Source of the DNA: Cliona cf. orientalis
Lineage: Eukaryota; Porifera; Demospongiae; Clionaida; Clionaidae
Length of the DNA: 64,000 nt
Assembly: GCA_963930775.1 (NCBI GenBank)
Contig: OZ005695.1
Span: 6,262,001-6,326,000 of the forward strand
Direction: 5' to 3'
In this document: positions 21,649 to 64,000 of the stretch, piece after piece
How positions within the stretch are numbered: position 1 is the stretch's first letter
How the letters are laid out: each line of letters starts with the position of its first letter
Notes under the pieces: model-generated
The model's database searches: none
Told to the model about the DNA's origin: nothing
The model's input: the letters and a program-made list of their open reading frames with translations, nothing else
Position numbers and translations under genes: made by a program

Positions 21649-24600
21649 ATGGCGTCCAACCACAAAATCTATGGGAGCACTGTACCTGCGCTGATCATCC
21701 CTGATCATTTCTTTTGCAATGTAAGTTCAGTGCTTGTGATACGTACCTGCAATACTCCAGTGTACCACTGACCAAAACTTCATGGGAAGCGGTTTGATTG
21801 TTAGTGGGTGTGCAGGGTCTGAGATTACATTTGGCAGCAGATTATTACTACAGGGCACCTTTATCTGCAACCTTCCTTGTTCCCTAAGTAGTTTCGTCCC
21901 TTCTATTAAACTTGGTTATGCTTGGAGGCTGATCGATGTTTTGAGGCAAATAAGGTGCAAAATGTATGTCCCTACACTGTTACTCCTTCATAAGAAGACA
22001 GAGGGGGAGGGGGTGGCAATAATTACGTGGTGGGTGGGCAGGAGATATTACAAAATTCTCCTGTTACTATTACTTGCACCAGAGTCTTCTAATTGATCAA
22101 GAGCAAATGAAGCTCTTATTTTTACTGTCACTTTAATAGCTTCTCTTTTAGCTTAGCGCATGAGGTAGTCAAGACTACATGCATGCACATAACCTTAGCC
22201 CATAAGTGAGTGAGTCTTGGTTACTGAGGGGTGATCATGGATTAAATCCTCCTTTATTGTATATTGATTCTTTTTTTAGCAAAGCTCTAAGCTTGTTGTG
22301 ATATATGATGATCCGATTGGTGAAGAGGATGATGTAATCACACTAATGTTCCCTGGTGACGTGAGTGGTAGCTCCCCCAAGAGGGTTGTCCCGGAGAGGG
22401 TGGGAACAAGGACACTTGTCTTTGATACTCCAGGTAAATACTTTAACCCCATATTAACCATAATATTTTTTCCAGTATGTCCTGAGTATACTCAGGACGT
22501 TTTCCCCAGGCTATCTCTCCCAGTTCTTAATATTGTGCACAAAACTGGGAGAGAAGGCCTGGGGATGAAGGCATTTTCAGCTTGAAATTTGGAACAAAAT
22601 GAAATGGGTGTCAAAGTTAATACGTAGCCACTGGTTATTAGGCCCAGCTTGCTGTTAAGTGCATACTATATAGTGCACTGGTGCAAAATTTCATGGAATT
22701 GCTAATCCTTCAGAAGATATTTTCGTGGTTTTAGTTTTCACGCCTATGTTGATCGATTGTGCAGTACATATACAGCAATATTATGTATGACATCATGCTT
22801 TCTCCACCCATTTAGAATTTCTTGGCTTTTATTTTCTCAACTCCCTACTTTCATAGTTTTTATGCAGCCCTTACATCCTTAGGTGCTTAGATTTGTAGAG
22901 CGAATAAGTTTGTTTGGATGATAACAACGAGTTAGCAGACAACAAAACAGATCATTTTGTACCTATTACCGTATACTTTCTAATATAGGCGCCACCAAAA
23001 ATTAATTACAGATCGCGCAGGCGCCTCCAATTAGAACTGAAAAATTCACGAGCAGGTCAAAGGGCGCCTAAATTAGGGAGGCACCTAAGAGCTGCAATTA
23101 GAACGGTTCTGGAAGTTTTGCCAGAGCACAAACGCGATCACTAATCGGTCCTATTTAGTGGCAGTCAATATGATAGTGGCGAGAACAACAAAAATATGGT
23201 TCTAGTTTCAGTTCTTTTTCTGATCGCTGAATCATTCTCGAGTTGTCGGTACCGTAGCCATCAGAACGATTTTCTCTAACTCTAGAAAGACTCATCAAAG
23301 TAATCGGTAAGTGCCCATATAAATGTATGAGAGAGCTTAGTTTGACATCTAAACTACTAGCTCCGATAAATCAATTGCTGGTATCGCGGTATTGCCATAT
23401 ATGCATATGGCACGTGGCAATACGTTCCAATTAAATAGGCGCCGCCTAAAAATAATTGATCTCCGGAAAGGCGCCTTAAATTAGAACCGAAAAAATTGCG
23501 CAGGTCTCAAAGGGCGCCTAAATTAGGGTGGCGCCTATATTAGAACATATACGGTACCCCCCTTTGCGTGTACATGTATATGGTCGGGTGCATGTTCCAA
23601 GGGGTGGTTACTAATTGCAATTAAATATAACGTACTGGCACCCGCTACTGCAATCAAGGTTTTTGATCACACCTAATGATTGAGGTTTGAAATTGCGGTT
23701 GACCAAAGTACTAATTTACAGAGGTGAACACCAACATTTATAGCATAGAGAGGGGGGCGGGATCAAAAGTACCAGTCACACGTGTCACTACAGCAGATAC
23801 GGTATAGTGACCAACCCTTGGTGTTCATTTTGAAGTGTGAATGAATTATACTTGCAGCATAAGATTCAGTTTCATTTAAACATTTTGTGTACGTATGTGT
23901 ACCAGAGCTTTCTAACATTGTGCAGTGTCTACATTTTTTTCCTTAAGCACACATGATAAAATAACAGTGATTGAGCTCCATAATGATTTAACTGATGTAT
24001 ACACTAGCCTTCTAACTGTGATGTTTGTATTTGAGTACATGATTTTCCTTCATTACGATCATGTTATAGAAACAGCTCATTTTCCACCTACATAATCATT
24101 CTACACTAATCCCACGAGTATGCGTAACTATGAGAATATTATATTATGCTGTGTGTGTAGTTTTTGCATTCTGCATCTAAAGTTAGCTGACCTGATATTG
24201 GTTGGGGGTCAGAAGTGTGGCTATAAGTATTCCCTTTGAAGCCACCTGACATTGGCTTTATGTTCTGTTCTGTAGTATACTCCTCCTGTCGTGGTCTGGT
24301 TGAGGTTTTGCCACTGCTAAATCTCCAAAGTGGTGAGGTAGCCCAACTGGCGCACTTTAAGCTCACCCTCAAGCACCCTATAAGGAATGTCATGGAGCTC
24401 TGCCTTAACCTCTCCACCAATAACGCCATCTTACCCGTCCTTCTCTCTCTCATGGTGCACTGCCAAGGGGACAACTACAGGGAACACTTCCAGGTGACCC
24501 TTTACTGAAGAATATTATGGCTTCTTAGTCCCAGGCCCCCCCTCCCCCCCAATAGTTAACAGAAATAATAATATGATTGTGTAATACTACATTAAAGAAA

Positions 24601-27600
24601 AAGTGCCCTGTGCAATCTTGTATACCTACGTTTCTGCACTGAGTTATATTATAATACCATGTGTTATCTTCAACCTCAGACTTCCTTTTGGAGGGAGGGG
24701 GGCTGCACCCTTTGTAGTGGACAAAAGGGGAACCTGGGGGTTTGGATGGGAAGTGTATACAATGTACACTGTAGGTGCTAATGAATTTACACTGTGCTTT
24801 CTAGCGTTGAGAAATTCCCTGCTACTGTTTACACTCATAATATTGATGCAATATTATAGTCATTGTAGAGTTACAGTGTCACTGAAGGATACTTGAAGCC
24901 TTATATGACGTTTCACTATCAATGGAAGCGCTATACATGTTAAGCCAAGACTACAGGAAAGGGAGAGGGGGAGAGAGGGAAAAAGAGAAGAGAAAGGGGG
25001 TGGGGGGTGGGGAGGGAGGGGGGAGAGAGAGAGAGAGTAAGAAGGAAAGGAATAGAGCCTAGCCATTAACGTTGATTGAAGTTGTCCAATAACTCTGTGA
25101 GTTATCTATAGACTGTTTAAACAAGCTGTAAGTTGGTGTCTATTGCTTGCATACTCTCAGGAGAGCGAGCATCAACAAATCGTGTATCCGTTATGTAAAC
25201 AGTGGGTAACATTTAGCTGTTGTTGTTGAACGATTATTGCAGGATCCCCACATAGATCGAGTGATGGCTACACTGGTTGGCAGCAGGACTCCAGGGGACA
25301 GCACTTGCATTCAGGACATCATTTTGCCGAGTAAGCAAATTTATGGTATAGAACTATCTGTGCTGATACTAAACTGTGTTTATTATTGATCACTGTGTAG
25401 GTAGGAAGTGGCGACGAATGAATTTAACTGAATTTTCTCGTCTCTTTAACCTGGCAGAAATGGAAAAGCAGGCTTATGTTTTAAATAAAGTAAGAGGCAT
25501 TTTCCTCACCTTAATTGTGTTAGTATTATAATTGAATGGCTATTGGTTACTATAGCAACGTTCAAAGTGGGCATCAAAAGCATCAAAAAGAAGTAAGTAA
25601 TGCAGATGATAAAGAATATGAGAAAGGCGCCTAGGAATACAACAATTAGTTTGTTGTTGCATTTCTGTCAAAGACTAAAAGTGGCTAGCTGCAGGGTCTT
25701 GGGATGGGGTTTCAATATGTCTCCATTTGAGTGGTAGGTTTCCTCCAAGTATTATGTTGCATATCCACTTGGAAGCATGGTATGTGATTGTGTCCAGGCA
25801 AAACTATCGTGCACTCTCAGACGACTGATGGTGAGAGTGTTGATGTGGATGAGGAGGATGAAGAAGGTGAGGGTCAGCTGCGGCCGCACCTGTCCAGCTC
25901 CACTCCGGACATCCACACCATTCATACAACAGACAAGCAAGAGGGCAGGGACAGCGGGCTCAGTGATGACTCAGACGTCGTACAGAAGTTTGTGAGAGGT
26001 GCAAAGTTTGTTTGTCGAGTAATTGAGGACTTCATACCTACCAATGATCAGCCATCCTGCATTCCTCTCAGGGTCAGTAGCAGGCACTATCATTACTGAC
26101 ACCACCAAGATTTGACAATAATTATTTTTGAGAGGGAATGATACATCAATCAGTTGATTTACATCCCTACTTGTTTAATCTTTTTAGATGAATCAAGAGG
26201 TTCATATAGTTCAGGAGTCCAACTCGGATTGGTGGTATGGTGTGAGTGAAGACAGATGTGGCTACTTTCCTCCCACCTGTGTCCAGGCGATCAGGGGGCC
26301 CAGTAAGGTAAGCCAGCCTTGAATTGTAGTGAAGTCTCATTGCCTAGTGCTCTGACTACCATCTCGATCATGTCATGCTGCATACAAACATTATGTGATA
26401 CTATGATGTAAAAATTATATGTGCAATTATTGACCATGTGTTTTCCATTGATGCAGATGAGAAGTACAACCGTTTCAGAGCCTTCAACACGTTTATTTCA
26501 TCCACGGCCTGATCTCTCAACCAGCTTCCGTGAGGATCTTTCCTCTCACATCAAGAGTTCTCTACGTGGACAAACTCTAACAGAGTCTGGGGTAAGGATA
26601 ATTGCTGCACATGATTGTTATACCACGATTTCGTCTTCGAGCATGACCAATGTTCTGTGGGCTGATAATGAAACACTTCAATGCAGCAGTCTGTAGGTGT
26701 CATTATCAATAAATGCTAAAATTCAACAGCTGCTGCATGCTTAATGACTGCTTCCCAAAGCATTTGCGCATGTGTATACCTAATAATTGTAATATACACA
26801 CATAATATTATTATAAGTCCCATTACTGCAAGTATGCATGTAGTGTATGTTCCAATTAAGGTAGTGAAGTACAATGCATACACACATACATGTACCAATA
26901 CGTGCAGAGAAGTGATATTAGCCAACCAGAGTCCCCTAGTCGAGATCGGCGGAGGACTAACCCGAGTCGGTTGGTGGTGGGAGCAGGAGTGAAGAGGAGA
27001 GAAGATGGGATCCAGTCAGACAGTGGACTGCCAACTGCAGAGGAACCAAGGGTTACAGTAAGTTATCTTACAAGACTACATGGTACATTATGAAGGATAA
27101 TGTTTTTGTAGCATGAGAGAGCTACTGAAACTGCTAATGTTTTTGTGTGGGAGTTGTGTACGATATTTGGGTATACTGGGTATCTAAAAGCAATTAGTTT
27201 ATATTCAGCTGTTACTTAGTTTAAATTTCCATTATAAAAATGTTTGTGTAGTCTATGGCAGCTACGAAAATTAAAGAATATCCACACTATAATTTTAATG
27301 TGGTATAGATCCTTGAACACAAAAATTGTTTACAATATGAAAATTTCTGGATCTACAGTAGATTATGTTTGCGACTGTGTCACCATGAAAACACTATACT
27401 GTAATAGTGGAACCTCTCTATTATGGATACATGAAGTGTCCTTATTTCAGGGGTTGTTTTGTATATACTTCTCTCTGAAGCTGGGACAACGGACAGTGTC
27501 CAGATTAGAGAGTTGTACTGGGCCTCAGTAGGGAGGCTCCACTGCATGCGCATGTATATCGTATCAAAAATAATCTTATGCTTATCCGATATCTGCCTTG

Positions 27601-29444
27601 TCTGCAGGCTCGAAAGCCACCCACGCCATACACAAAGCAGCAACTGCTACAGAAAGTGACTCCCATACTGCCCCCTGCCTCATACAAGTCCCACCGGTCT
27701 CATCCACCCACCTCTCCCGGCCACGCTGACAGTGTGGAGAGCTCAGACTTCGAAGGCTACGAGGATGTGATGTCAGATGAGGAAGAGGGAGCAGTGGTGA
27801 AGAGCCAGTGGACCACTGGAGCCACACCCACCACAGCACCAGCTGAGGTAAGCTGTTCGGCAGCTATCCAAAGTCTACCTATTGCTGAGCACACTAGCAA
27901 AAGGCAGCTAATCCTGCTTTTTGTTGTGTCTATGTATATGTATGTATGTCTGTCATGCTTTGGTAGTTTTATAACTGTGCACAAAAGAAAGGTTATTATA
28001 CTCGCTTGCATGCACACATGTTGACATGTTATGGTATCACACGTGCACACACACATATTCTTCATAGCAAATGGAGGTGAAGACACCATTTGTTCCCCCA
28101 TTCATGCGAGATAAGATCTTACCTGCTGTACCAGATCAATGGTCACCGCCTCAAAAGCAAGATGCTAGGTTGCCAAGTGATAGCAACTATGAGGATGTGA
28201 TTGTGCCAACTGCTGACTACGAGAACATAACACTGGATGCGTTTGAGATTGTGGACGATCACATCTATGACCGTGCCGATAAGGTCCTCAACAAGCACTC
28301 ATCAATATACAAGATAACTGCCAGTAGTGCTCACATGCAGGCTGTGACTCAGTTGGCACTCAAGAAGCAAGGAGCACAAGGCGATCATCAGAGGACAGAA
28401 AATGACCCGATAGATCAAAAGTTTGGAAGGCTACGGCAGCATTCAATTAAGGACGCTGATGATCCACCACTGTCCATGAGTCCAAGAACTGCTGCATTTG
28501 TACCTCCTCGTGATGTTCCTAGACCACACCCATCTCCGGTACACTATTTGAATACATCCCCCTTAGTGGATAGCACAGGCACCCCGGCAGGATGGAAAGG
28601 CACTATTTCCCCTCCACACTCTGGGTCCCCTACAGTGGCCTCCAAGGTACAGGAGTCACCCATATTGCCACCAAAAACCTTTGCTTTCCCGACTATGCCA
28701 CCAAAAGATTCGGATGCACCTATATTGCCGTCAAAAGTAGCTCCAGCACCCCCTCCCAAAACTGGAGCTTCACCAAAGAAAGCACCTATTCCTCCCCCAA
28801 AGATGATATCTGAGGCTCCTATTCCTCCAGCAAAAGTTGCACCAGAGGTTCCATTTGTACATCCAAAAACTACAACAGCAGCTCCATTTCCACCCCCAAG
28901 GAGTGAATCTGAGGCACCAATTCCACCCCCAAGGAGTTTGAGTGAGTCTGAGGCACCTATTCCACCCCCAAGGAGTGGGCCCGAGGTGCCAGTTTTACCT
29001 CCAAAGACACCACATTCTGCATCTGAGGCTCCAATTCCACCCTGGAGATCAGAAGCTCCAGCTCCACCCAGAAGGTCGTCAGAGCCAAGGTCAGAGACAC
29101 CAAGTCTCACTTTACCACCAAAGGTACCATCTAGTCAGTCAAATTCACCAGCGGTTCATCCAAAGCCTTTGAAGCGACCTACAGGGGCAACAGCGCCAGT
29201 GCCCATCCCTCCACCCAAGCCAGTAAAGCAAGAGCCTCCACCACCACCACCCAAGACTGGAAACTCATACTTGAACAAATTCAATGAAAGTGGAGATCAT
29301 GGGAAGAGAGGCCTGGGAGGGAACAACACTTTTCCTCAGCCTGCAGTAAGAATGCTACCAGTCAATGAAATTGCACAACGTGCAGCAGCTCTACAGCAAA
29401 GTGGTGTCCTGACTGCTAGTAAGAGATATTATAAGCCTTCTTGA
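21649..29444 (+). CDS. SH3 adaptor 1: beta/helical N-terminal module, SH3, Tyr motifs, Pro-rich tail
   Basis: Twelve exons were read: 21649-21720, 22280-22433, 24276-24493, 25243-25330, 25401-25489, 25556-25592, 25798-26072, 26188-26307, 26457-26591, 26908-27057, 27608-27847 and 28068-29444. They close to 984 aa. An N-terminal module (about 1-180) reads as beta strands (KLVVIYDD, ITLMFPGD, TRTLVFDTP) followed by helices. An SH3 domain at about 288-345 has the expected SDWWYG and CGYFPPTCVQAI. Tyrosine motifs GYEDV, NYEDV, DYENI and IYDRA (about 497-592) look like SH2 ligands. Residues about 750-925 are repeats such as EAPIPPPRS and PILPPK, typical SH3 ligands. I do not recognise an orthologue by name. 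It matches adaptor 2 in layout and intron phases. A cytoplasmic signalling scaffold is inferred. Confidence 0.85.
22967..23556. mobile_element. TACCGTAT-ended inverted-repeat element, 590 bp
   Basis: Left TIR TACCGTATACTTTCTAATAT and its inverted partner ATATTAGAACATATACGGTA extend about 31 bases with a few mismatches. The interior carries repeated GGCGCCT/AAATTAG blocks and no ORF. It lies in the second intron of adaptor 1. Confidence 0.85.
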
Positions 29445-29743
29445 CCATCACTGTTAATTATTTTGTGGCAAATCAACATACTTAATAATTATTAAAGATA
29501 ATATTATTATTATAGCAGTGGCATACCACTTGTGAAACTAGAGCATATCTCCCTTGCCATCCTGCACCTATCTGCACAGAGATGAGTGCTGCCTATTTAT
29601 GAATTGATCAGGTATATATATATATAGCACAATCACCAAGTGACATCAAGAGTACCACCTTGTACATGTACTTGTATGTGTACCTCAATCATCAACCAGT
29701 ATCATTGTATACGAGTTAAATAACATTGCCTGATGTACCCTTG

Positions 29744-29749
29744 AATAAA
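29744..29749 (+). promoter_or_regulatory. Possible polyadenylation signal AATAAA
   Basis: A canonical hexamer 300 bases after the adaptor 1 stop codon and before the convergent TMLHE stop. No cleavage site can be seen from sequence. Confidence 0.4.
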
Positions 29750-29838
29750 AATGCATGGCTGAACATAATAAATAAATGAGTTGACTCATACAGCAGATTT
29801 GATCATCCATGTGTGACTCCAGGGCTGCTTAGTATAAG

Positions 29839-31896
29839 TTAATGATTCAGTTTGTTCCTGGTGACCATTACCCTACTCCTCCAGTCCTCCCTGTTCACAT
29901 AGCCTCCACACAGCCGCCTCCTATCAGTGAACGCAGTGCGGGCATGGAGAACTCGGTGATTATCAAAGATCAACGCCCTTCCTGGCTTCAAGTGAAATCG
30001 ATACTGGTACTCTCTCTCCCTCATGGTCTTCATGAAGGTCTGAATAGCTCCATATACATCAGCAATGGAGCCAGTTGGCTTCACCCTGTGCAGGGCTTGT
30101 AGTGTCCTGGTACTGATGGGGGAGCGGTCACAGTTGTTGAAGTGTACTTGCGAGATGCACCCTGTAGCTGGATTTAGAGTGAAGGGGACATAGGAGTTGA
30201 GGTAGTGGTTGTCCTTATCCTTATAACAGTAGTCAAGGGGAACCGTTGAGAGGATGTGGTAGTGTTCGGGATTAGCCTCTTTGATGACTTGAGCAAGTTT
30301 GAAGCCATCCACCAGAACACTTTCACCACCAGTGCCCTTAAAGTAGGTCACATGCAGCATTTGTAGACCTGGAGATTAATAATCCATTAATATTGTTGCT
30401 AGTACCCTGCAGCTGAATAAGTAAGTATATACTGTGCCAATGAAAGCACTGCAATACAAATATTATTTTCAATCCCTGATAAAAGAAATCGACGAGGAAA
30501 AGTACACGTATATCTTGTGGATACACACCCATGAGGGCTAGCTGAAAATCGAACCAGCTCAAGACGTGGTTAATAAAATTATCATACAGTTACTTTCATT
30601 TTTATCATTTCCAGGTATATAGTTGGGGCTGGCAAAAATGCAAGAATATTTTGGCTACAATACTATAGTTCTGAGCACAACAAACAAGTACAAAATTGTG
30701 GCTAATGCTCACCTGGTGCATCAAGGAAATAGTTTCCATCAGTATGGGAGTCTATTCCCATCGCAGTGTATGCAGTGTCTCTGAAATTAATAATACCGGT
30801 ATTATTTATTATACCACAGTGTCCCAGGCAAGTACCCACTCCCAGGTAAGCGTCCATGTACCACATTTCAAGGCATTAGTGTAGCAGCTTCTATACAAAT
30901 GTTATATCCTGGTGTGGGCCAAAACTGCAAGTTATGTTTCAGTGCCCATGGGCGTTTGCCCGGGACACTATATACAGTAATAATCAAAGTGAATAATGAC
31001 AAGTAAATTACATAAGGCCATTAAAAGTTATTACTTGTTCCCATCCCAATCTATACATGTATTCTGCCTCTATGATGCTGTCGTATACCCAATGACCATC
31101 CTTTACCAAATATCTCACAAAATTTTAATGGTGCTTGGAAATGATTCTTAGTTGTTTTTTTTTACATAGGTGCATACCCATGTTCCATATCATCAGCAGG
31201 CCTTGCAGTCACCTCAATATCCCAAAAGTCCCCATAGAACGTATTACGCAACACTCCTACTCTTTCTAATACTCTCCTAGAGAAGTGTGGTTCAAGAGGA
31301 ATTCCATCAATGAAGCAGAAGCCTCGTTGATCCACTTTATCTGACCACTCCAACCAGGCTCGCTCATCCTTTATGAATCTGCCATAGTCCACAACTGGAG
31401 GTGCACAGCTGATCTCCCTACCCCAAGTAGCAACTCCACTTGAGTCAAGCTCAATGACACTCTCTGGTCGCTGCCCTTCTCCTTGGCTTTCATATTCATA
31501 GGAGTGAGCCTTCAACCATGCCAGTGGGTAATTGGACTGGTGCCCATCCTCCCACTCAACTGCCAAGCTATCGTGGTGTATGGATCCACTGTTTTCACGT
31601 AGCTGCACTGATCTTGGTCTGAGGTCAGCACTGATGGTGAGGGTGTCCAGCAGTCTTTGCTGAGTCTGAGGGTGGTAGCACTCACTACACTGACAGTTGT
31701 CTCTCAGCCAGATGTGGTGAAACTTGCTCCAGAAGCTGGGTACACTGTCGTCTCTTCTCTTCCATTTGATCTCAACTGAATCCGTACTTTGTTTGAGGCT
31801 GACTCCAGCCTTGTTAAGTTGTGTACTCAAGAGTCGTGAATTTCGTATGGAGAAGTGGCTACGAGCATATGCATACGCGGTTAATAACCCTCGCAT
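29839..31896 (-). CDS. TMLHE: Trimethyllysine dioxygenase, mitochondrial
   Basis: This Fe(II)/2-oxoglutarate oxygenase performs the first step of carnitine synthesis, hydroxylating N6-trimethyllysine. Three exons (31896-31178, 30780-30713, 30368-29839) close to 438 aa; the human protein is 421. The N-terminus is basic and amphipathic (SHFSIRNSRLLS), fitting a mitochondrial presequence. The small zinc-binding domain shows WLRDNCQCSECYHP. The catalytic part has DTAYT, the iron ligands HTD in DSHTDGNYF, GTGGESVLVDGF, and the distal FDNHRVLHAR with the third His and the 2-oxoglutarate Arg close by. The spacing GDTAYT...HTD...GTGG favours TMLHE over gamma-butyrobetaine dioxygenase. The middle exon is only 68 bases. 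The gene is convergent with adaptor 1. Confidence 0.9.
30818..30972. mobile_element. MITE with splice-donor-like ends, second copy
   Basis: Ends AGTGTCCCAGGCAAGTACCC and GGGCGTTTGCCCGGGACACT are inverted relatives of the 18131 and 56727 copies. It lies in the first TMLHE intron. Confidence 0.65.
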
Positions 31897-32676
31897 CTCG
31901 ATTATCGTAAGTGGGTGTGGTTCGAGGGTGTGGCCTCACCTAGACACGTGATTACCGATCGATCGAGGTTTTTGTACGGTTTCTTTGCGAGCTTCTAAAA
32001 CTTCGTTCTTGCTTGCTAGAGGGAGTCCAGCTCCATCGCCGGCTCCAAGGATGTCAAACAGAGTGACCTACTTTGAGGGCAGCCACAAGTCCACGGTCGT
32101 CCCGGACTCCCGGACTCCATGACCCACCAAGTAAATTTTTGCGTCGACCTTAAATAGTCGCTCTTCTTGGTGAACACCGACACTGAATTCTTTTCGGTAG
32201 CAGCAGGCGTCAAACATGGTTTTCTATCTTCTGGATCTTTCATAGCTGCCACATGGCTGTAGTATCGCCGAAGTCCAATCGCCCGATGAACAAATTTTCG
32301 CGACGCCTAAAATCTTCGCCCATTCTGGGCTTAATAGCCTGCCTGGTCCTTTGCTTTGACCAGCTGTGGCAAAAGTTGATCGCTATGCACTAGCTAACTC
32401 TTAGTCTTAACTCTATCGCCAGTGTCTGTTAATCAAAACATTTGTAGAACCTTAGCCTCGAACCCAGGCTCCCCGAAAGTGAGCCTGGATTCGAGGCTAG
32501 TAGAACCTATGCATGCCTGCAATAGTTTCTGTACTGACTTGACTCACATGGTCAATGGCAAGGGAAAGTCCCGTTTGGTCACGTGGTCTAATTGTGCATG
32601 CGCACAGAGCTAGAGCTGAGCGAGGAACCCTACACTTCAGTGTATCGCTAGTAATCACAGGTAATAGCGCCTTAGC
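31897..32676. other. Divergent intergenic region TMLHE/TRIM-NHL
   Basis: It holds both promoters. A near-perfect palindrome at about 32454-32500 (arms TAGCCTCGAACCCAGGCT and AGCCTGGATTCGAGGCTA) belongs to a short dispersed family. A GC-richer block at 32020-32130 contains a short ATG frame at 32051-32122 (MSNRVTYFEGSHKS...) of 23 codons, which I cannot assign. Confidence 0.5.
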
Positions 32677-34890
32677 ATGGAAGAAGAGGTTCAAGTTTCA
32701 ACTAAGGAAGCACTAGATAAGCTCAATGCTAAGCTGGAGTGTGCTATTTGCTTTGATACATACCAGGATCCTAAACTGCTACCATGTTTTCACGTGTTCT
32801 GCAAGCAGTGTCTAGATAAACTTGTGGTAGAAGATGGTTCCTCTCTCAGCTGCCCTACCTGCCGCCATGTGACACCGTTACCCAAGGGGGTGGCTGGTTT
32901 GCAGACTGACTTTCACGTTGAGCACATGTTTGAAATCCGTGATGCATTCAAGAAGGCTACCAAGTTTACACAAGAAAGTTTATGTGACAAATGCAAGCAA
33001 GAGGATGCTGTAGTTTTCTGCTCAAACTGCAACCAGTTCATCTGTGATAAATGCAAGAACATGCACCAGCTCTTTTCTGAGCTAAAGATCCACCAGATAG
33101 TGTCACTGGACAGAGTTAGAGAAGATGCCACCAATATGGTCCGCACTAGCAAGCAGACTCTGCACTGCCCTAAGCATCCCAGTGAGATATTGAAGCTCTA
33201 CTGCGAGACATGCGTTGAGCTGATCTGCCCCGACTGTATTGTCAAGCTCCACAAGGATCACGACTATGATCTGGTGGTGGATGTCTTCACCAAGCACAAG
33301 GAGGAGATCGTTGCACAGGTCCAACCCTTGAAACAGCAACTGGAAGAGACTGATAAAAGTCTTCTCAAGTTTAATGCTAGAGAGAAAGAGATCACAGAAC
33401 AGAATGAAACCGCTAAAGAGAAACTCCATGAAGAATTCGATGAGCTCCATAGGATTTTGGAACAGAGGAGAGCTGAGCTTGGGGCTAAGCTGGATCAACT
33501 TGCACAAAAGAAGCTGAAGAAGTTGGCAGCCCAAAAGGATCATGTAGAAATGCTTCAAGCTCAGTTGAGTAGCTGCTTAGAGCATGCTGAGGGAGGGCTG
33601 AGGACAGGTACTGAGGCTCAGGTGCTAGCAATGAAGAAGCCAGTGCTCCAACGAATCAAACAGATCACCACTGAAGTTCAGACCTGCTTAGAGCCGGAAG
33701 AGGAAGCAAACATTGCCATTGTTGTAACCATGAAAGAAACTCTTCACAAGTCCTGCGCTCAGTTTGTTGACATTATTGAGAATCCTGGCAATAGTGGCCA
33801 GAAAGAGGTACTTCAACGTACACATGTTGGCAAGCGATCCAGTTTCATAGTCCATGTTGGCGGTGATAAGGAAGCTACTCACCTCACTGCTGAGTTAACT
33901 CATGAGACATCTACCAACTGTACAATCGTGAGGCAGTCCAAGGGACAGTATGAGGTGTGCTATCGGCCTATCAGGGTAGGGAAACATGAACTGCACATCA
34001 AAGCTGGTGGACATGATGTCCTAGGGAGCCCGTTTACCATTGTGGTATCGCCATCAAAGAAACACCTTCGTAAACCATCTGTAGTTCTGAATGAAATAGA
34101 AGGGCCAATTGCTCTCGCAGTAAACCATGATTGTGATATTATTGTGACAGAGAGTAATTCAAATTTGATAACGGTTGCAGTTCTGTCCCAGGATGGAAAA
34201 AGAAGGCAGACTCTTGAGCTCGTTAGTGAAGGAAAATTTAAAAATCCTCATGGAGTGACCATGGACTCTAGAGGGAATGTGTATGTTACTGACCGTGATG
34301 CCAGTTGTGTCTACATGTTCACACCACAGCACACCTTGATCCAATCAGTAGGATCAAGAGGCAGTGGAAACTTACAGTTTTTTCATCCAATTGGAATTTC
34401 GTTCAACCCTAAAGGAAACAAATTTTATGTATGCGACGAAGATAATCATCGAGTGCAAGTGTTGAGAAATGACTTGTCATATGACTATTGTTTTGGCAGG
34501 AAAGGGACAGAGGCTGGAGAATTCACCAACCCTCTCTATGCAGCGTTCGATAGCAAAGGAGATGTTTACATCACCGACTGCTACAATAACCGTGTACAGG
34601 TGTTCACTCCTGGTGGTCAGTTTATACGATCTATCCAGGACAAGTCTCGTGGTCAGAAATTGGAGCATCCTTATGCAATTGCTATTGATAGTGTTGACAA
34701 TGTATACGTCAGTGAGAGGGACAGACACTGTATCACTATATTCAACTCGGACGGTCAGTATGTGTCGTCCTTTGATGGGGAAAGTCAATTCCATGGTATC
34801 TATGGATTATACTATGATGATTTCTGTGGTTCCCTTTTTGTGTCTGACCATTTCAATAACTGTATCCTTAAATTTGATATGTCCCAGTGA
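32677..34890 (+). CDS. TRIM-NHL protein, intronless
   Basis: This is a probable RING-type E3 ubiquitin ligase of the TRIM2/TRIM3/TRIM71 type, 737 aa in one exon. Domains in order: RING at about 22-62 (CAICFDTYQDP, CFHVFCKQC, CPTCR); two B-boxes at about 103-145 and 163-200; a coiled coil at about 205-310; a filamin/Ig-like domain at about 385-457 ending GSPFTIVV; and an NHL beta-propeller from about 480 to the end (PHGVTMDSRGNVYVTD, HPIGISFNPKGNKFYVCD, NPLYAAFDSKGDVYITD, HPYAIAIDSVDNVYVSE). All RING zinc ligands are present. NHL propellers in this family bind RNA or protein partners. The lack of introns contrasts with every neighbour and suggests a retrocopy origin or an expanded lineage. The exact vertebrate orthologue is not clear. 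Confidence 0.95.
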   Translation: MEEEVQVSTKEALDKLNAKLECAICFDTYQDPKLLPCFHVFCKQCLDKLVVEDGSSLSCPTCRHVTPLPKGVAGLQTDFHVEHMFEIRDAFKKATKFTQESLCDKCKQEDAVVFCSNCNQFICDKCKNMHQLFSELKIHQIVSLDRVREDATNMVRTSKQTLHCPKHPSEILKLYCETCVELICPDCIVKLHKDHDYDLVVDVFTKHKEEIVAQVQPLKQQLEETDKSLLKFNAREKEITEQNETAKEKLHEEFDELHRILEQRRAELGAKLDQLAQKKLKKLAAQKDHVEMLQAQLSSCLEHAEGGLRTGTEAQVLAMKKPVLQRIKQITTEVQTCLEPEEEANIAIVVTMKETLHKSCAQFVDIIENPGNSGQKEVLQRTHVGKRSSFIVHVGGDKEATHLTAELTHETSTNCTIVRQSKGQYEVCYRPIRVGKHELHIKAGGHDVLGSPFTIVVSPSKKHLRKPSVVLNEIEGPIALAVNHDCDIIVTESNSNLITVAVLSQDGKRRQTLELVSEGKFKNPHGVTMDSRGNVYVTDRDASCVYMFTPQHTLIQSVGSRGSGNLQFFHPIGISFNPKGNKFYVCDEDNHRVQVLRNDLSYDYCFGRKGTEAGEFTNPLYAAFDSKGDVYITDCYNNRVQVFTPGGQFIRSIQDKSRGQKLEHPYAIAIDSVDNVYVSERDRHCITIFNSDGQYVSSFDGESQFHGIYGLYYDDFCGSLFVSDHFNNCILKFDMSQ

Positions 34891-34893
34891 TTA

Positions 34894-40083: not shown

Positions 40084-40632
40084 TTGCTCATAATACAGGG
40101 AGACCCCACTGCATGGTGAAGAGCAGGCACATACGTGTAACATTACAAGGCTCCATGTTTGAAATTTATAAACTCAGGTTCATGGCTTCTTACAAGTGAA
40201 CTTTGTTGTTTTCTCCTAGCTCTATTGGTACAGCTACAGTCTCTCCCTAGGCCCTCGCTTGGATTTAGTATACGTCACAGAAGATAAGAGAGTAGCAGAG
40301 AAATGGAGCAATGAAGAGGCACTCTGGATCATGGAACAGCGACTTCAAAAGCTAGCTCTGCAAAATTACTTGGAGCACGTGATAAACGATAATCCTGCTC
40401 GCTGATTGGCTACGTTTAAATTTGAACATGCATGCATACCTTCAACGTGTAATTAGAGAAGATCCCAGTGCCAAGGAGAATTAGAAGAGTACCTCCTTCT
40501 CAAGTGGCTGTTTATTTATTCTGGATCCCGTTCCTCAACGCTCTAGGGTTGGGTGAGAGAACAGTATCGACCTGGAATTCGAACTGTAAGACAGTGAAGG
40601 CAAAGCTGTGGATATTCTAATTATAGAGCACC
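40084..40632. promoter_or_regulatory. Divergent region ARMC1/MTFR1-like
   Basis: About 550 bp lie between the two start codons. It contains an inverted CCAAT box (GATTGGCT at 40404-40411). It also contains an unassigned exon-like frame, listed separately. The shared promoter is inferred. Confidence 0.45.
40220..40405 (+). other. Unassigned exon-like open frame
   Basis: Directly after an acceptor-like TTTTCTCCTAG, a frame of 61 sense codons runs to TGA: it starts LYWYSYSLSLGPRLDLVYVT and continues with EDKRVAEKWSNEEALWIMEQ. It has no ATG at its start, so it would be a terminal exon of a plus-strand gene whose other exons I could not find. The amino-acid composition looks protein-like. I do not recognise the family. 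It may be chance or an old gene remnant. Confidence 0.35.
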
Positions 40633-45615: not shown

Positions 45616-47587
45616 TCAAATCCAACTTAATGTCAGTAACATGCTTACAAGTGTTGTTTGAATACTTTAGATACCCCTCTTGCGCAGCTGCGATTAAACA
45701 CAGATAGCTACATGCCTGAACTCCTGAATTTTGCCATGTTGCTTGCTATTGATTTAATATTATGGTAGCAACACAGGGGTTCCCAAAGCCATAAAAATAT
45801 TGTAGCCAAATTGGCTACTAGAATATTTCTTTATAGCTAAATTTCATACGCAATAGCCACAGTATAATATTATTATTGTACATGTTACATTGCACAAATG
45901 AGAGAGAGAGANNNNNNNNNNNNNNNNNNNNNNNNNNNNNNNNNNNNNNNNNNNNNNNNNNNNNNNNNNNNNNNNNNNNNNNNNNNNNNNNNNNNNNNNN
46001 NNNNNNNNNNNNNNNNNNNNNNNNNNNNNNNNNNNNNNNNNNNNNNNNNNNNNNNNNNNNNNNNNNNNNNNNNNNNNNNNNNNNNNNNNNNNNNNNNNNN
46101 NNNNNNNNNNNAATCCAGAGAGGGAGAACGGACCAACGAAGCCTTAATCAACCAGAAATGCGGACTTTTGATTCATTATGAGCAACAACAAAGCCTCGGA
46201 TCTTGCTTATTTGGCAGGGGTTGAATGGGGTTGAAAGGGTGGTTTGTCAAGGCTCACTGAGTTCTTTCCCAACGGCATCCTTCGCGAAGCACAGGAGTGC
46301 ACAACCGCCATACGTTTCTGTACATTAATTTTTATATTGGTGCACGTGACACATTAGTGACATTTGATAACAGCATGTCCAACCTCCGCTGCATTATCTA
46401 CTACATGTACTAGTACTAGTTACACTCCTCCTACTTTTGCCAATTTGGTGATCAACGCGACTCCAATGGTGATTTTGGCAATCCGTCTGGGGATCCACTG
46501 CAACATCCAATGTTGTACTCAATCATGCCACGACAGTCCCCCACAACTTGATTGTGCCTGTCCACTGCGCTGGATATGGTCCCCCAGGACAAACCCTGCT
46601 AGTGAAATCCAGCCCCTGACCCCTCTCGTAAATGGCAGGGGGAGTACCATGGATATAGTCCGGGGGACCACTTAATAGTATGACATTACTCAAAGTGACA
46701 CAATGATAATAATGATGTTGTTATGGGGACTATTTATCTCAAGAAGAATCTTAGTAATTGCACCAGTGTGATCAAACGGGTGCATGTGTGTCTAAGTGCT
46801 ATATTTTTTTATCATTGATCAGTTTAACATTCATTCAGTGTCCAGCAAGAGACTTGGAGTAGTCCATCCCACCTCAAACAGAGACAAATTTCTTAAGGCC
46901 ATTTGGCCATAAAGCCACAAGGCCAAAGGCCATTAGGCCATCTTATTCCATAATCCTTCCCTTTCAGCTTTAGGCTATCTCTCAGTCACACACCCATCCT
47001 CTAGCTGATACCTTTGGTGTAGTTTCCTCTTGGATCATAGTTATAACCATATAGTTCTGTGTATGCCTTTCATTCACGTGGTAATGCTTGGGGGGCTATA
47101 ATATTATATTTGTGAGAAGGGGAGTGTTTGAAGTATTTGGTCATCCTTGTACTGTTTATTCATCCCTTGCAGTTCAACTAGTCCTTCAATCTATGTCTGT
47201 TATTCACATCCTCTCCTAGCTCTCCCACCCACCTATGCCTGACTGTTACGCAAACCCTTACATGACTCATTCACAAAGTCACCCCACTCGTGTGTACAAT
47301 GACTGTGTGATATGCAAACTTTCTTTATTAGGGTTTACATATACAATGTCGTGTGTTTTCATAATGCTTTATGTCAACTGTTTATAATATTTACACATCT
47401 CCATTGAGTTGAAAACAACAAACACATTGATAACATTGATAGTATTCTGTTGCGGTGAACAAAAATAACACCCATGACAATACAGATAGTTCATCGATTC
47501 TTGCACACAGTCTATTTACATTTAATATGACGGTATTTAATAATACATGTGCTTGTGTGAAACTCTTACATGATGTTGTAACATCTT
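45616..47587. other. Convergent intergenic region with assembly gap
   Basis: It contains 200 Ns at 45912-46111. The gap is entered through a (GA)n run, so it probably hides a GA microsatellite. An alternative last exon of the MTFR1-like gene could lie here (for example after the acceptor near 46841). A GGCCAAAGGCCATTAGGCCA cluster at 46895-46942 is locally palindromic. No gene was recognised. Confidence 0.5.
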
Positions 47588-50500
47588 TCAATTTCTCTTT
47601 GGTTTTGGGCTGGTTTTGGGCCCAGAGTGCTCACGGCGGTTGAATGCTGGTCCCGGGCTTGAAGTTGGGGTGTGTTTTGGTTTTCTTGCCACTGGTGGTG
47701 CAGCGGCCTTGGCCTTGCCCTTGAAAAATATTGCATTTTCGTAGGCTACTGTTGTGGGTTCTGGCGAATGCTGTGGACTTTGTCCATGAACTCCTGAGCC
47801 ATTACTTATTTCAAGTCTCTGAGAATCGGATGAGCTTTTTGCTCGTGTTGACCTGAATGCCTTGGGAGATCCTCCATTAGTTTCTTGGCTTTGGTATGTT
47901 GAAGGCGGTGTGGGTGTACTGTCCAGTCCGGTCGTATTGCATGTAGCTGTAGTGTGGGATCGTGATGAACGTACTTGTACTGGGGTACTGCCGCCGGTTG
48001 ACTGAATGTGGCGTCTGGGTTTTGGAATGGGTGGCCTCTCCAATACCTTTGGAGGAGACTTTCCAAATACTGGATTATCAAATCTTTCCGCTGCATTCAT
48101 AGGTTGCTCTTGAGGTGGGAATGGTGCTGCTGGCTTTTCCCAAACTGGCCTTTTTTGTAGCACTAGTGGAGGCTTATCTGGTAGTTCAGGTAGTGGCTTG
48201 TCTGGTAGTAGTGGTGGAGGTCTATCTGGCAGTGGTTGTGATGGCAGCTCTGGTGGAGGCTTTTCAGGTAGTGGTGGTGGTAGCTTATCTGGTAGCTCTG
48301 GTGGAGGCTTTTCTGGTAGCACTGGTACTGGCTTTTCAGGGAGTGCTGGTGCAGGTAAAGGCTTCTCAGGTAGCTCAGGTAGGGGCTTCTCTGGCAATAC
48401 TGGTGGGGGCTGAGGCTTTTCTGGTAAAGCTGGTGGGGACACTTCAGGTTGCAAGTCTGCTAGTGGTTGAGTTTCTGACAGTTGAGGAAGTGATCTTTCT
48501 GGTAATGTTTGAGGAGATGGGTCATTTGAAACCCTTGTTCTCTTAGCTGGTCTAGGCTTTGTAGTGGGTTGGGGTTCACTAACAATGCGTGGCCGGTTGT
48601 GCCTTGGGCTTGGACTTTTCACGGATGTTCCCCTTCGTGGAGAGATGGCATTCCCCACTCCTGCTGACTGCGTTTGGTGACTCACTCGTGGCGGCAGTGA
48701 GTTACTTTTGGTTGTCATGGCAATGGGAGATTGTTCTATGAACACATCAGAACCCTCTGAGCCTTCAGGGGTGACAGTATTCCTGCCATCTTCTAGTTCT
48801 GAGATCTCTGAACTTTGCTCTAACTCATGGTTTGAGGAGCTTGGTGGTGTCTTCCTTTGCATGTGCTGCATGTTTTCACTGTCCATGACTGAGGCCCACA
48901 TGACCTGTTGTTCAGTGCTGTGTGGGGCCATGAGGGAACCCTGCACATCAATGGTTGAGTCTGTGTCGTGAGTGTATGGCACTTGTTTGACGACTGGAGA
49001 TTGCTTAGATGGAACTGCGTCATTGATATCTGCATATTGGAGTTTGCTTGTGGAGTGTGTATTATCCTGGTGGGATGGGATGACTTGGGCACTGGCTGTG
49101 GGCACAGATGGACCGACATCTTTAATCTCAGCGTAGCCCCACCCTGACTGACTAGGCAGTGTTTTCTGATGTTCATCTGCTATCTTTGCAGTATGTGCTG
49201 ATACAGGGATCAGCTGGTCATACTCCGAGCCTTGTTCCTCTGTAATTATGTCGTGAACTGATCGGAGGACTGATGAAGGAACATCGTAGATCCCGTCTGT
49301 GTCCACCTTCTCACTCTCGTCTGGGACATATACTTCCGTCACCCTCTCTTTCTGTTGCTGTTCAGCTCCATTGGTATTGTGCTGTGGGACTGTCCTACTC
49401 ACTGATGTGGTCTCTATCTCTCTCTCTCCTCTCAACTGTTGCTGGTCTATGACAGTTTGTGGAATGGTGCTGCGATCTTTTTCCAGCTGAATATTGTCTG
49501 ACAGTAAGGATTCCAAAATCCGGTTCCTATTTGGGACTTTCATATAGTGCTGTACAGGGATAAGATTTAATAATAGTATTACACCGTAAGTAATTTGCCA
49601 AAATTATTGTGTTCATGAAGCCACTTACCCCCTCAGTGATGAGCTTGTTGAGGACGTCTTCCCTATTAGGAGGTACGTCATAGATATGGTCACTGTCATC
49701 AGAGTCAGAGTCACTGCTGGCAACCCTTGGCTGTATATGGTGTGGTGTGGGGTATATGTCGATATGAGATAATGATCTTCTTGTAAATAAAAGCAAGTCC
49801 CACATGCACATATTATGGATGTAGACGCACATGTACATGTGTGGGTATATCCTGGCTTGTATCTTAGCTCAGTCCCAGCTCTCAGTACAATACCCAAATA
49901 CAGACTGAAAGTTACATGTATTGTTGTAGAGTATAAGTTGGTATGCTGTACATGTAGGCTTGTGTACTCATACCCAAGTTCCCAGACTTTAGTTTCCAAA
50001 CACATGTATATACATCCTCTAATAATTTGTGGTAGGTAAAAACTAAGTGTAGCCCCCCTGTTATATCCCCCTGTTCCTGAGTAACCAGGTGATCCTGTTA
50101 TTCTGCATGCAGCCCTGTTCTTCCTGTGCCAAGGTTTCAGTTTAGAAAAGGAACCACCTTCAACGTGCATGCATAGTAGTAAACACGAAGCCAGGAAAAT
50201 TATCTTTCAGGGTTTAGATAATTGCACTTGCAGGGATTGCACAAACATACGAGGAAATATTCTTTGTTTGCATAATGAAGCTGGACATAAGTAATAATAA
50301 TAGTATTAGTCTGGCTTATTAGCAGGTCAGCATGGTTGTGTATTTTCATTTGAATGTTATGGTGGGAGGCATGATGTCACTGGAGTGGAGTCAGTGAAAC
50401 ATGGAGGGGCAATGGGGGGGGGGGGGGGGGGGGGGAATCCCAGGGTACCCCACCCTCTGTATCAAACTTTTTTACTTGTATACTGTAATGGTAAAATTTT

Positions 50501-53181
50501 GCTTTTATTTATTGTATGCTGTATCTTGTAATGGTAATAGTAATTTTTCTCGCTTACTGATCTTTAGCACTGTGTGTGCCCACTTACCACATTCCTGGGG
50601 ATCTTGTATACTTCATCATCATCATCACTAGCTCCGTTGAAGCTCACTCTGTCATAGTCATGCTCATCCTCCAAATCATCAACCTGCAAAAAATATGTAG
50701 CATACATTATACAGTGTGATTAATTTTAGTAAATTTAGCCAAGTACTTACATCTTCTCCTGACAGAATACACAGTATGGACTTGGGGAATTTGCAGTAGT
50801 GACCATTGCATACCCCAACACACATATTGTCTTCAATCTCCTGAGTCACATACACCTTATCACCAATCTGTGTGTACACATAGGCATTGTCCATAATGAG
50901 CACATGAACTGTAGTGTTACAATAGTAGCTAGCCATGTGGAAAGCCAACTTACTTCCAGCACAAAGTTGATGTTGGTGGAAGCCACCCATCTGTACTGCC
51001 TGACTATCTCTGCCTTGTAGATGGCCTTCTCCTGAAGCTCTGCCACTGCATTGGACACAGCACTGCCATAGCCAGAAGAGAGAGAGGACACAGGCCTCGC
51101 TCGATGCTCTGTGACCTGCAGCTGGCCTGGCACATGCATACTCTCTCTAGTGGAGGGAGGAGGGGTGAGGGGAGGCCGCTCCAGTGGTTTAGGGGAGCCA
51201 GGTATGTGTTTTTCTATTCGAGGCAGTGTGCGGGAAAACCTCCTCTGGTCATAGGTACTTTCATCCTTGCCGGCCATGGAGTAGACTGAACTCACACCGC
51301 TGGTGGGTGGGCCAGGGTCTGCAGGTCCAGGAATGGTGATGGATGCTGTAGAGGCAATGGAATTCCTCTGGCTCTGAGGGAGGGTAGCAGAACGCATGTC
51401 TTCAATGGATTCACCACGTGGAAGCTAGAAAAATGGAACATAACGTTAGGCTGATCAGATATCATCTCTACAATGTAATCAGCATGGATCAATTCATATA
51501 AAAGTGTGGGATGGCAGTATGAATCCTATTGGGTAAATTGTGCATGACACTGCTCATTGTTGCCATACCTCCTCCACTGGGGGCTGCTGGGGAGCTGGGA
51601 TGTTAATCTGCATAGAGTGTACAATAATAGCATTATTTTGACTGGAAAGGGAGCATGCCCACTATGTAATTGAATCACTGCTTCCCCATAGCAGTTATAT
51701 GTACATGTAACAATCAATGGCAACATTTATCTTGCACTACAACCATATTAAATGCATGTAAGCTAGAGTTATTCAATTTCCCTGCTAATTCCCCGTGCTT
51801 TACAAATAGATTGCTATTTGGCTGGCCAGCAGCTGTGCGTTAATGTCAACCAAACAATAGCAATATGTATGCTACCATAGTTGTATTAATCACCGTCATC
51901 AGCCAGATAATCATGCAACTACAGCTCTACACTGTTTACATGTACTGTACTTGGTTTTGATTAAAAAAATAACCTACAAATACTAAGTATACAGGCACAA
52001 ATTGACGGTTGCATGTATGTTATTCTAGTTCCGTACTACTGCACACCTCGATCACTTTGACAGATCACTTCCTAACTGAAGTGAAGCAGGATGGGCCATC
52101 CTGTTTGATGTTGGACTAAGACACAAAAATGGTGGGTGATAGAGTTGTACGCACAGGGAATTCCTAAACTTAAAATGATGCTGAAAATGTGTTGAGAGTG
52201 TAACCTACAAGTCAAGATGAGCAATTATTCATTGCCATATTGATGCTGTACCATGGAGCTTACTTGTATGGTTCACATGATTGTATTGATCACCGGATAA
52301 ATGCCAGCTATGAAGCCACTTTGGTAAACCATTTAAGCCTTGTTATGATAACAGCCAACAAGACTACGTACATGAGATTACTGCTAATGTGCACATCAGC
52401 GATAGTGGAAGGTAATTGACTGTACATATTATTACCTTTTCAGTATGGATCTAACCTCACTGGACTTATTGACAACAACAGCTTAAAAACATCTACATTC
52501 TCTACTGATATTGATAACAGTAGCTACACCCCACAACAACAACAACAGCTACTCAAAAGATTCACAGACAAGGTTAAGTACCTGTCACTAACTCCACTAA
52601 AACATGAAATATCTGGTGTGATTATATAGATGTTGTCACAGGGTTTTATCTGGTCCGAAAATTGGGGGGGGGGGGGGGGGGGGGGGGGGGAATAGGGCGG
52701 TATAGCTAGACTAAAGGGCCACCTTGGTGGCCAAAAGGGGTGGGTGCAGGAGGGAGCACAATAGTGCGGGAAGCCAAAGCATAAAATTAATATTAGTGTT
52801 CCCAAAAAGCCATCTATGCAACATGAATTTTCAATTAAAATTGGGGGGAGGGGGGGGGGGGACAGCTCTATGCAGATAAACCCCTGTGTCAGCTGTCGCT
52901 CTGGATGCAGTGGTAAACTACCCTCAAATTGCTACTAACCTTTTCTCTGGTTTCACTTTTGAACAGCTGTCGAAGCATGCGCTTTGCTCCTTTACCCTAT
53001 ATGTATGACATTGTAGCAGTAATATTAAGGTAGATGTTGTGTATCACCATATCATATAATGTCAAGCCAGTGGTTACCTTTTCCTTCTTCTTATGTGGAG
53101 AAGTTGGACTCTCTGTGGATAAAAAGCTTATTATTCCAAATTTCTACTATAATAATATTTATTATGCGTATGTATGTGTGT

Positions 53182-53221
<40 letters not shown>

Positions 53222-55869
53222 ACATTCTTATGCCACACACAAGCACACATGTATGCAACAGACCCACTCACACACATTCTACCATGCACTCACCTTGAGC
53301 ACAGTAGTGCAAGTTGGAGTCAATGGAAGAGGCTCTGGGGATGTCATGTTTACGGTTAAACTTCTTTTTGGATTTCTAACAAAAAATATATGCATGTAAT
53401 ACATGTAAGTGCCAGTGCACATGCATGCGCTGTCTGAATAATGGTGCTTACCGGTGTTGATAGCTTCATGACACCACTTGCCTGCATAGTGAATGGAAGG
53501 ATCTTACAACAATGAAGAATACCACATAATTATACTACACAAGATTTATTGATAATAATTTTGGTGTGTGGTGGTCCACCCATGCAAGTGGGTTGATGTG
53601 GTCAGAGAGTGTACACTGCTAGCTACTTGAGGTTAGACCACCAAGCACTCCCACCATGCCATGCCTGGCCATAGATTGCCTGCCCGCCTGTTGCCTTACT
53701 AGGAGCTAGTGAGCCAGCACCCAGGAATCACATTGTCAGTATGTAGTTAGCAGGGCTTCAAGTAGGCAGCCCGGAACATGAAAAGTTGTACAGGGACTAT
53801 CATCTACCAACTAAGAAGACATTTCAACTTCCCAATGATGACATTTCTAATGCTTTGATGACTCTTGTTTGACTATTAGATCATATGCATACACAAACAC
53901 CTTTAACACACACACACACACACACACACACACGATCTACGAGACTACTACTATGATTTACTTACAGTTAGCTGCTCTGCTGCTTCAGTCACGGCTACTA
54001 AGCCGTGTTTCTTGGCAATCTCCACGGGTGTTTTGTTATCAGGACCTTTTTGGAGAAGATAGTGAGCTCTCTCCTCAATGAACCATGGCTGAAGGAGAAT
54101 ATCCAGGGACTGAGTCAGCTTGCGGCGAGTGCACATGTGGAGCAGGTTCTCCGCTGGACTGAAATTACCTATGATATTATTGTGTTTAAATTGAGTAAGC
54201 ATGCTCTGCGTGATAAATGCATGGGTAACCCTACAATGGTCATACTCTCTAGCCCCACCATTCCATTGTAAAAGTGGTGTGACATTGAAATAATATCAGG
54301 GGTGAGCCAGGGGACAGTGTTACTCTAGGTTGTATGCTGACTCTTCTACTCTTGGGTGTGCATAGTAATAATTATTACAATAATACGATGATGTTGTGCT
54401 ATCTTGCCGTGTGCATGGAAAATGGCAGGTAGCATAACTCACACCAGCAAATATGTACACAATCACTTTAGAACTTGCAACTTTTCACCTGTAGGCAGTG
54501 AGTGTAGCTAAGCAAATTAGCTGAAGCCCGACTCAGTCACCAGCACCTTAATCGCTAAGCATCCTACAAGCAAGCATTTAGGCAGCACAAAAATTGAAAC
54601 CTCTAAAGTTAATTACGAGTAATAGCAAACTCGTTCATAAACTGCAAGATGTTACGCATGGTGTTTGGTTTTAATTTAGGGTTAGCCATGCTAGAGTGAG
54701 TTTGAAGGTGGTAATATTATGTGGGAGGTGGAGGCCACATCAAGGGCAGCCCTAGTCACTCACCACAGAGAAGCCAGGCCAGTATCCACTCTGGGAGGTC
54801 AGCTGGCTGGATATCTTTGAGGATCTCACTGATCACTTGATCAGCGTTCATGGTGGCTTCTCTGTCCTTGTCATCGCAGTTGGCAAGGTAGGCCACTACA
54901 GCGGCCAGCATGGCTACCTGACTAGACCCACGTTTCGTTGGAAGACTGCTGGCCAGGGCCTCAATTGGACTCTGAACCTTCAGCTGGAACTGTGGGAAGC
55001 AGGAGTCTTCATTACGAGCCAGTAGAACAGTGATATTCACAATGCCTGGCTTGGGAAACACTGTTGATGGTGTGCACATAATGTGTGTGTTTGTGTGTGT
55101 GTGTGTGTAGGGCAAGGATTATGATAGGTTGCCTACATGTGTCCTCGTGTGTATATATACGTTGTATAATTTGAAAAACGTTTATATTAGCCCTGATATT
55201 GACGGCATCCAACAGTTCACTGAAACTGCTGCCCAGCTTACAACTACAAGAGGTCAGTGACCTTGTGAAACCCATGAGTGCAACACTATTGGTATGATTC
55301 AGTTTCTACTATTGATTTTGACTGACCTGGGAACATTGCCCTGACAGTGCGTGGTCCAAGCAGTGCAGTAGGAAGAGTGCCAAACTTGCTACTCTCACCC
55401 TCATAGTAGAGGTCCAGGGTAAGGAACGAGTTCTTGGGGATTTCTCTGCGAAATTCAATCACTACCACCTGCTCCTTCTACAATGTCATGTTAATAATAA
55501 TAATATTATTAAAACTCTGGGCTAACAGTATGTCTGGGATAGCTTTCAGTTTCAATTTTTGAGATACAGTAATGGCACATCTATAGACAATCATGATCAT
55601 CAATGTACAAGAATAATATGTTCGATAATAATAACAATGCAAACGGAGTTCTAGTTTTATGAGATAAATATTCAAATTTTTGCAAACTGTAGAAGACAAG
55701 CTACACATTATTGTGACAAATAAACCACAAGCTACTGCAAGTAAGCTACTAGTCTACTGAGTAGCTAGTGTTAGCGCGATGCCGATCGCATAAGACATGA
55801 TAATTTTGTAGTTGGGCTTACCTCGAGAAGGAGAGAGGGGGGAGTCACAGTGGGAGCTGCAATAGCCAT
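47588..55869 (-). CDS. SH3 adaptor 2: beta/helical module, ankyrin-like segment, divergent SH3, Tyr motifs, PEKP repeats
   Basis: Fourteen exons were read: 55869-55822, 55477-55327, 55045-54764, 54153-53966, 53481-53452, 53375-53294, 53112-53078, 52996-52940, 51607-51569, 51424-50954, 50867-50751, 50683-50588, 49730-49629 and 49549-47588. They close to 1219 aa. Residues about 17-67 are beta-rich (VVVIEFRREI, FLTLDLYYEGE) and 67-160 helical. Residues 161-223 look ankyrin-like (ENLLHMCTRRKLTQSLDILL, TPVEIAKKHGL). An SH3-like fold at about 440-495 lacks the usual Trp. Tyrosine motifs include DYDRV, VYKIP, two IYDVP and YMKVP. Residues about 936-1025 are PEKP-type repeats. The N-terminal order resembles the DBB region of BCAP/BANK/Dof, without TIR. 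A phosphotyrosine signalling scaffold is inferred. Confidence 0.85.
48173..48440 (-). repeat. Coding minisatellite, PEKP proline repeats
   Basis: A degenerate tandem repeat encodes units such as LPEKPLPELPEKP and LPDKPLPELPDKP inside the last exon of adaptor 2. Each unit holds PxxP cores. Copy number would be expected to vary between individuals. Confidence 0.85.
50414..50435. repeat. Poly(G) tract, 22 bases
   Basis: An uninterrupted G run in an adaptor 2 intron, followed by CACCCTCTGTATCAAAC. That tail resembles the right arm of the poly(G)-bearing element at 39695. Confidence 0.9.
52638..52886. mobile_element. Poly(G)-bearing inverted-repeat element, 249 bp
   Basis: Ends ACAGGGTTTTATCTG and CAGATAAACCCCTGT are inverted copies with one mismatch. 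A 27-G run (52664-52690) follows the left arm, and a G-rich run (52843-52861) precedes the right arm. It lies in an adaptor 2 intron. Confidence 0.75.
53185..53225. repeat. (CA)n microsatellite
   Basis: A dinucleotide run in an adaptor 2 intron. Further CA/GT runs lie at 53909-53933 and 55083-55109 in the same gene. Confidence 0.95.

Positions 55870-57198: not shown

Positions 57199-64000
<6,802 letters not shown>

Follow-up and report, generated by a model that had tools for sequence, protein, structure and literature searches.

The adaptors BCAP (PIK3AP1), BANK1 and Drosophila Dof (stumps) are the closest described counterparts of the two genes treated here. In published descriptions, vertebrate BCAP consists of DBB, ankyrin, coiled-coil and proline-rich parts and has no SH3 domain (PMC9695028), its DBB domain is a TIG dimeriser (PMC7128310), and its binding to SH3 proteins is constitutive, whereas SH2 proteins bind once it is phosphorylated (PMC6937578). 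A 2020 survey connects the emergence of Dof with FGF receptors, describes a cnidarian Dof without TIR, and states that Dof, BCAP and BANK were not found in the sponge Amphimedon, the ctenophore Mnemiopsis or Trichoplax; where the abstract mentions Dof 'SH2/SH3 domains', section 12 has SH2- and SH3-binding consensus sites (PMC7260276). Within the excerpts returned by our literature search, we found neither a DBB protein clearly stated to carry its own SH3 domain nor any connection of such adaptors to RhoGEFs. Here we analyze a 64,000-nucleotide stretch of the genome of the sponge Cliona cf. orientalis (assembly GCA_963930775.1, contig OZ005695.1, positions 6,262,001 to 6,326,000; hereafter the window, in whose coordinates features are given), which holds two genes, adaptor 1 (A1) and adaptor 2 (A2). 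We suggest, with a probability of about 0.58, that both encode scaffolds in which a module homologous to the TIG/DBB-ankyrin region of BCAP, BANK1 and Dof is followed by a basic linker and an SH3-type domain, with tyrosine motifs and a proline-rich tail behind them.

Gene models and paralogy

Rebuilding the genes from the sequence gave 12 exons and 984 amino acids for A1 (21649-29444, + strand), and 14 exons and 1229 amino acids for A2 (55869-47588, - strand), both with open frames and with GT-AG borders at all introns (11/11 and 13/13, respectively). In both genes the phase is 0 at the end of exon 1, and exon 2 (154 nucleotides in A1, 151 in A2) ends in phase 1 immediately after a proline; exon 2 of A1 runs from phase 0 to phase 1 and ends ...RTLVFDTP. 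AATAAA follows the stop codon at 300 bases in A1 and 259 bases in A2. The coordinates, order of parts and exon phases proposed in a first-pass annotation of this DNA were all correct, and the opposite orientation that it reported can be sharpened, as the genes, lying on opposite strands, are convergent, i.e. tail to tail. The N-terminal module covers exons 2-5 of A1 (22280..25489, +) and exons 2-4 of A2 (53966..55477, -); it comprises a TIG/DBB-like beta part, helices and an ankyrin-like end, which is reduced in A1 and in A2 reads LLHMCTRRKL...TPVEIAKKHGL. The basic linker of A2, read from the sequence, lies in exons 5-8 (52940..53481, -).

That A1 and A2 are paralogues, likely diverged sister copies, is well supported. 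With introns ignored, the score of the alignment between their N-terminal modules was equalled by only 4 of 2000 shuffles, and in this alignment two introns fall at the same place and in the same phase in both genes; the position of the intron in the SH3 domain also coincides. The N-terminal modules thus resemble each other, and the paralogy and common architecture claimed in the first-pass annotation are borne out. No third copy was found in the 216.8-Mb genome with residues 1-351 of A1 and 1-301 of A2 as queries, which fits the local duplication proposed earlier; that the duplication was an inverted one is conjectural, as no similarity between A1 and A2 remains at the DNA level.

SH3 domains, tyrosine motifs and proline-rich tails

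The SH3 domain of A1 (residues 291-344; 26010..26286, +; phase-0 intron at 26073-26187) is the only one of the two to pass the Pfam cut-off (SH3_2, expectation value (E) 2.3e-8). The corresponding segment of A2 (50760..51025, -), taken alone, stays under the cut-off against SH3_2 (E 0.044), and its assignment is also backed by the position of its intron (50868-50953, phase 0), which interrupts the segment where the A1 domain is interrupted; it aligns with the A1 domain at a score reached by 8 of 1000 shuffles. Judged by eye from the tryptophan and tyrosines that form the SH3 ligand pocket, A1 retains the tryptophan while the first tyrosine of ALYDY and the tyrosine of PSNY are substituted, and A2 has lost the tryptophan. 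The domain looks partly altered in A1 and degenerate in A2, so that the 'canonical' SH3 attributed to one of the genes does reach the Pfam cut-off, but with two conserved tyrosines replaced.

Further downstream lie an acidic, tyrosine-containing region and proline-rich tail in A1 (27608..29444, +) and a tyrosine region and proline-rich tail in A2 (47588..49730, -), the latter with two YDVP sites and a repeated LP[E/D]KP. In agreement with the many PxxP ligands noted previously in both proteins, PxxPx[R/K] is far more frequent than in shuffled sequences, occurring 16 times after residue 350 of A1 (2.5 +- 1.5 in shuffles) and nine times in the A2 tail (1.8 +- 1.4). Three YxN sites follow residue 350 of A1, and YxxM is absent from both A1 and A2. 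Aligned as a whole, the two tyrosine regions show no significant similarity (1407 of 2000 shuffles reach the score). What stands out is a shared pair, DHIYD (28257..28271, +, in A1; 49677..49691, -, in A2, where it reads DHIYD(VP)) followed by VLNK: any such pair occurred in 33 of 3000 shuffles.

The combination of YDVP motifs and SH3 in A2 might recall the Cas family (BCAR1/CASS4) or FYB/ADAP-like SH3 scaffolds. Set against the architectures of these proteins, A1 and A2 have their SH3 internally rather than at the N-terminus, and Pfam searches at E up to 10 return nothing for A2 and, for A1, SH3 families and a sub-threshold Anophelin match (E 0.16); we consider such an assignment highly improbable.

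Origin of the N-terminal module

When the DBB-ankyrin segment of BCAP is searched against the genome, its best match is a RhoGEF gene on contig C14 (C14:739515-754231, E 4.4e-4), which we take to be of the AKAP13/ARHGEF28 type and in which a BCAP/BANK1-like helix-ankyrin part precedes the DH domain. Aligned with this gene over the whole module, A2 attains a score reached by 8 of 2000 shuffles. Two introns, a and b, share both place and phase between A2 and the C14 module, and a third, c, nearly agrees, lying no more than about one residue from the LLH anchor. Furthermore, the module profile scores above 18 of 18 real-protein controls, and the ankyrin-like end of A2 aligns with both the C14 gene and the profile. 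A1 matches the start of the DBB profile weakly (16 of 400 shuffles), and is tied to the TIG/DBB-ankyrin superfamily through A2 alone. An exon-anchored profile of A1 and A2 compared with DBB (12 of 200 shuffles, 15 columns) was dropped, since exon 2 was misaligned in it.

A trace of intron b might also be seen in BCAP itself. Among a set of 120 BCAP proteins, the vole fragment P0092 starts MTLFSLAFYQYLLFRLDLSSGNV, where other BCAPs read ...VKAPNLSSGNV. If this start is intron read-through (an AG end, with the codon split after its first base), it would place a phase-1 intron right after the proline, as intron b is; should these first residues derive from a different exon, the position would stand and the phase would not. 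This one predicted protein suggests, weakly on its own, that BCAP has an equivalent of intron b after the proline.

These patterns indicate that the N-terminal module is probably of a known fold family, a diverged counterpart of the TIG/DBB-ankyrin module of BCAP, BANK1 and the C14 RhoGEF gene, and that A1 and A2 are probably strongly diverged relatives of BCAP, BANK1 and Dof that lack TIR and bear an SH3. Pfam finds no TIR in A1 or A2; TIR_3 was not found in the genome, in a search that had almost no positive control. A lysine-rich reading frame, MPKKKKGGKKKGG, runs on the - strand from window position 21411 downwards, some 240 bases from the start of A1, and is possibly a divergent neighbor sharing a promoter region with it. 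A divergent start codon at that distance, if real, would leave little space for an upstream TIR exon of A1.

Many results weigh against this homology. The Pfam DBB family (PF14545), which recovers BCAP, 6sws and BANK1 at 173.9, 132.7 and 84.5 bits, respectively, has no match in A1 or A2, whole or as modules only, at E up to 10; we therefore keep both out of the DBB family, and hold it probable that they are related to the TIG-ankyrin module in its wider sense. Pairwise comparisons of A1 with BCAP, BANK1 or the C14 gene and of A2 with BCAP are not significant, and the A2-BANK1 score (27 of 2000 shuffles) stems from an out-of-register alignment. The C14 gene resembles BCAP solely from the helices to the ankyrins, generic ankyrin matches account for part of that score, and, because the similarity stops ahead of this stretch, the odds for it were lowered. 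With its ankyrin exon removed, the C14 module shows no resemblance to BCAP (543 of 1000 shuffles), BANK1 (472) or A1 (404), and a weak one to A2 (96 of 1000). As the pre-ankyrin part yields no significant score, the case for the TIG part is built on where the introns fall and on pattern rather than on scores. BANK1, in a sequence assumed here to be faithful, finds its best genome match at C15:3437998 (E 0.011), with the C14 gene second (E 0.023). A two-sequence profile of A1 and A2 found nothing in the PDB, 6sws included. Protein-database searches through exact five-residue words, which can miss distant relatives, gave no homologue for A2 (7990 top-sharing candidates scored) or for residues 1-350 of A1 (2785 candidates). 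The AlphaFold prediction for exon 4 of A2 by itself, which covers the ankyrin-like part, is unconfident (predicted template modelling score 0.32), and Foldseek returned nothing convincing with it. In addition, Pfam Ank has no match in A2, and PDB sequence searches with the A1 and A2 modules gave nothing relevant; a genome search with PF14545 found no match anywhere, positive controls included, and so carries no weight.

The silence of Pfam and the PDB, the noise-level pairwise scores against BCAP and the lack of significant similarity of the pre-ankyrin part of the C14 module to BCAP or A2 are what a lineage-specific domain unrelated to DBB or TIG would produce, in which case only the paralogy of A1 and A2 and the SH3 would be real. 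Such a domain would not be expected to match the C14 module at introns a, b and nearly c, to align with it over its whole length, or to outscore all of the controls, and we judge this explanation unlikely, if to be taken seriously. Comparably unlikely, in our view, is that the module came specifically from the N-terminus of a RhoGEF of the AKAP13/ARHGEF28 type, instead of a forebear of BCAP and Dof, and reached an SH3 scaffold by shuffling. The nearest detectable relative of A2 is indeed the C14 RhoGEF module and not BCAP, but the protein type, with tyrosine motifs, a proline-rich tail and no catalytic domain found, resembles BCAP and Dof, and two divergent sequences cannot separate the two sources.

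The gene models themselves also bear on the homology of the scaffolds to BCAP, BANK1 and Dof. They were built from genomic sequence, and further AATAAA motifs occur inside both genes (25484 and 26708 in A1; 53550, 53163 and 50513 in A2), as might be the case if each model fused an N-module gene to a separate gene for an SH3 scaffold; in A2 the join would lie in intron 8, which separates exons 8 and 9 and, at 1332 nucleotides, is its longest. The order of parts is identical in both copies, however, the A1 introns between exons 4 and 8 measure just 66-205 nucleotides, and phases agree, which makes fusion improbable.

Neighboring features

Elsewhere in the window, a TRIM protein with RING, B-boxes, a filamin repeat and NHL repeats is encoded in a single frame (32668-34890, +), and a gamma-butyrobetaine hydroxylase-like dioxygenase has its GBBH N-terminal and TauD parts in separate frames (29839-31935, -). 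A CBM_21 starch-binding domain (16296-16832, -) is presumably of the kind found in protein phosphatase 1 regulatory subunits. There is a transfer RNA, tRNA-Phe (GAA), at 63751-63823 (-), and positions 45912-46111 are a run of 200 N.

Discussion

A1 and A2 resemble BCAP, BANK1 and Dof in their tyrosine motifs, their proline-rich tail and the absence of a detected catalytic domain, and would resemble them in the beta module, helices and ankyrin-like end, and possibly in the phase-1 intron after proline. They differ in having no Pfam DBB score and an SH3-type domain of their own, and in lacking both TIR, which is typical of most bilaterian DBB members, and YxxM, the feature of BCAP that serves PI3K p85. 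With the TIG/IPT domain of BCAP (PDB 6sws) there is no match at the sequence level; the fold, and the placing of intron b in the loop that precedes the G.V.V strand, would be expected to be alike. The C14 RhoGEF gene probably shares the N-terminal module with A2, introns a and b included, and carries a DH domain. The scaffold type is probably one already known, and what is new is the addition of SH3, the lack of TIR and the strong divergence. The implication of the first-pass annotation that the N-terminal module is unknown was probably not right, given a C14/BCAP-like module with matching introns, although the direct match to BCAP is not significant; the accompanying view that no named family has this architecture holds for the unusual SH3, and less so for a module that is probably TIG/DBB-ankyrin.

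We propose, from the behavior of BCAP and from the motifs of the tails, that A1 and A2 would act as scaffolds that form dimers and work downstream of tyrosine kinases. Dimers would form through the TIG-like part, as in BCAP, and the proline-rich tail would pre-bind SH3 adaptors of the Grb2, Nck or Crk type; once tyrosine kinases had phosphorylated the DHIYD, YDVP and YxN sites, SH2 domains would dock there. The SH3 domain of A1 would recognize a proline-rich ligand, which might be the tail of A1 itself or that of A2; the SH3 domain of A2, its tryptophan lost, would provide a structural or non-canonical surface. The mutual network suggested in the first-pass annotation would have a single SH3 domain, that of A1, with the ligand-binding tryptophan at its disposal.

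It is tempting to go further, and we do so tentatively, as the odds are somewhat against it: early-branching animals might hold SH3-fused, TIR-less scaffolds of the BCAP/BANK1/Dof type that predate cnidarians and bilaterians, and the dimerising TIG-ankyrin region might be a single unit, conserved in its exons, that shuffling has distributed over RhoGEFs and phosphotyrosine scaffolds. If the homology of the module is true, its presence in a sponge would make this scaffold type older than the origin given in the 2020 survey and would place an SH3 domain in an early version of it, and intron evidence would offer a route to diverged members that profiles miss.
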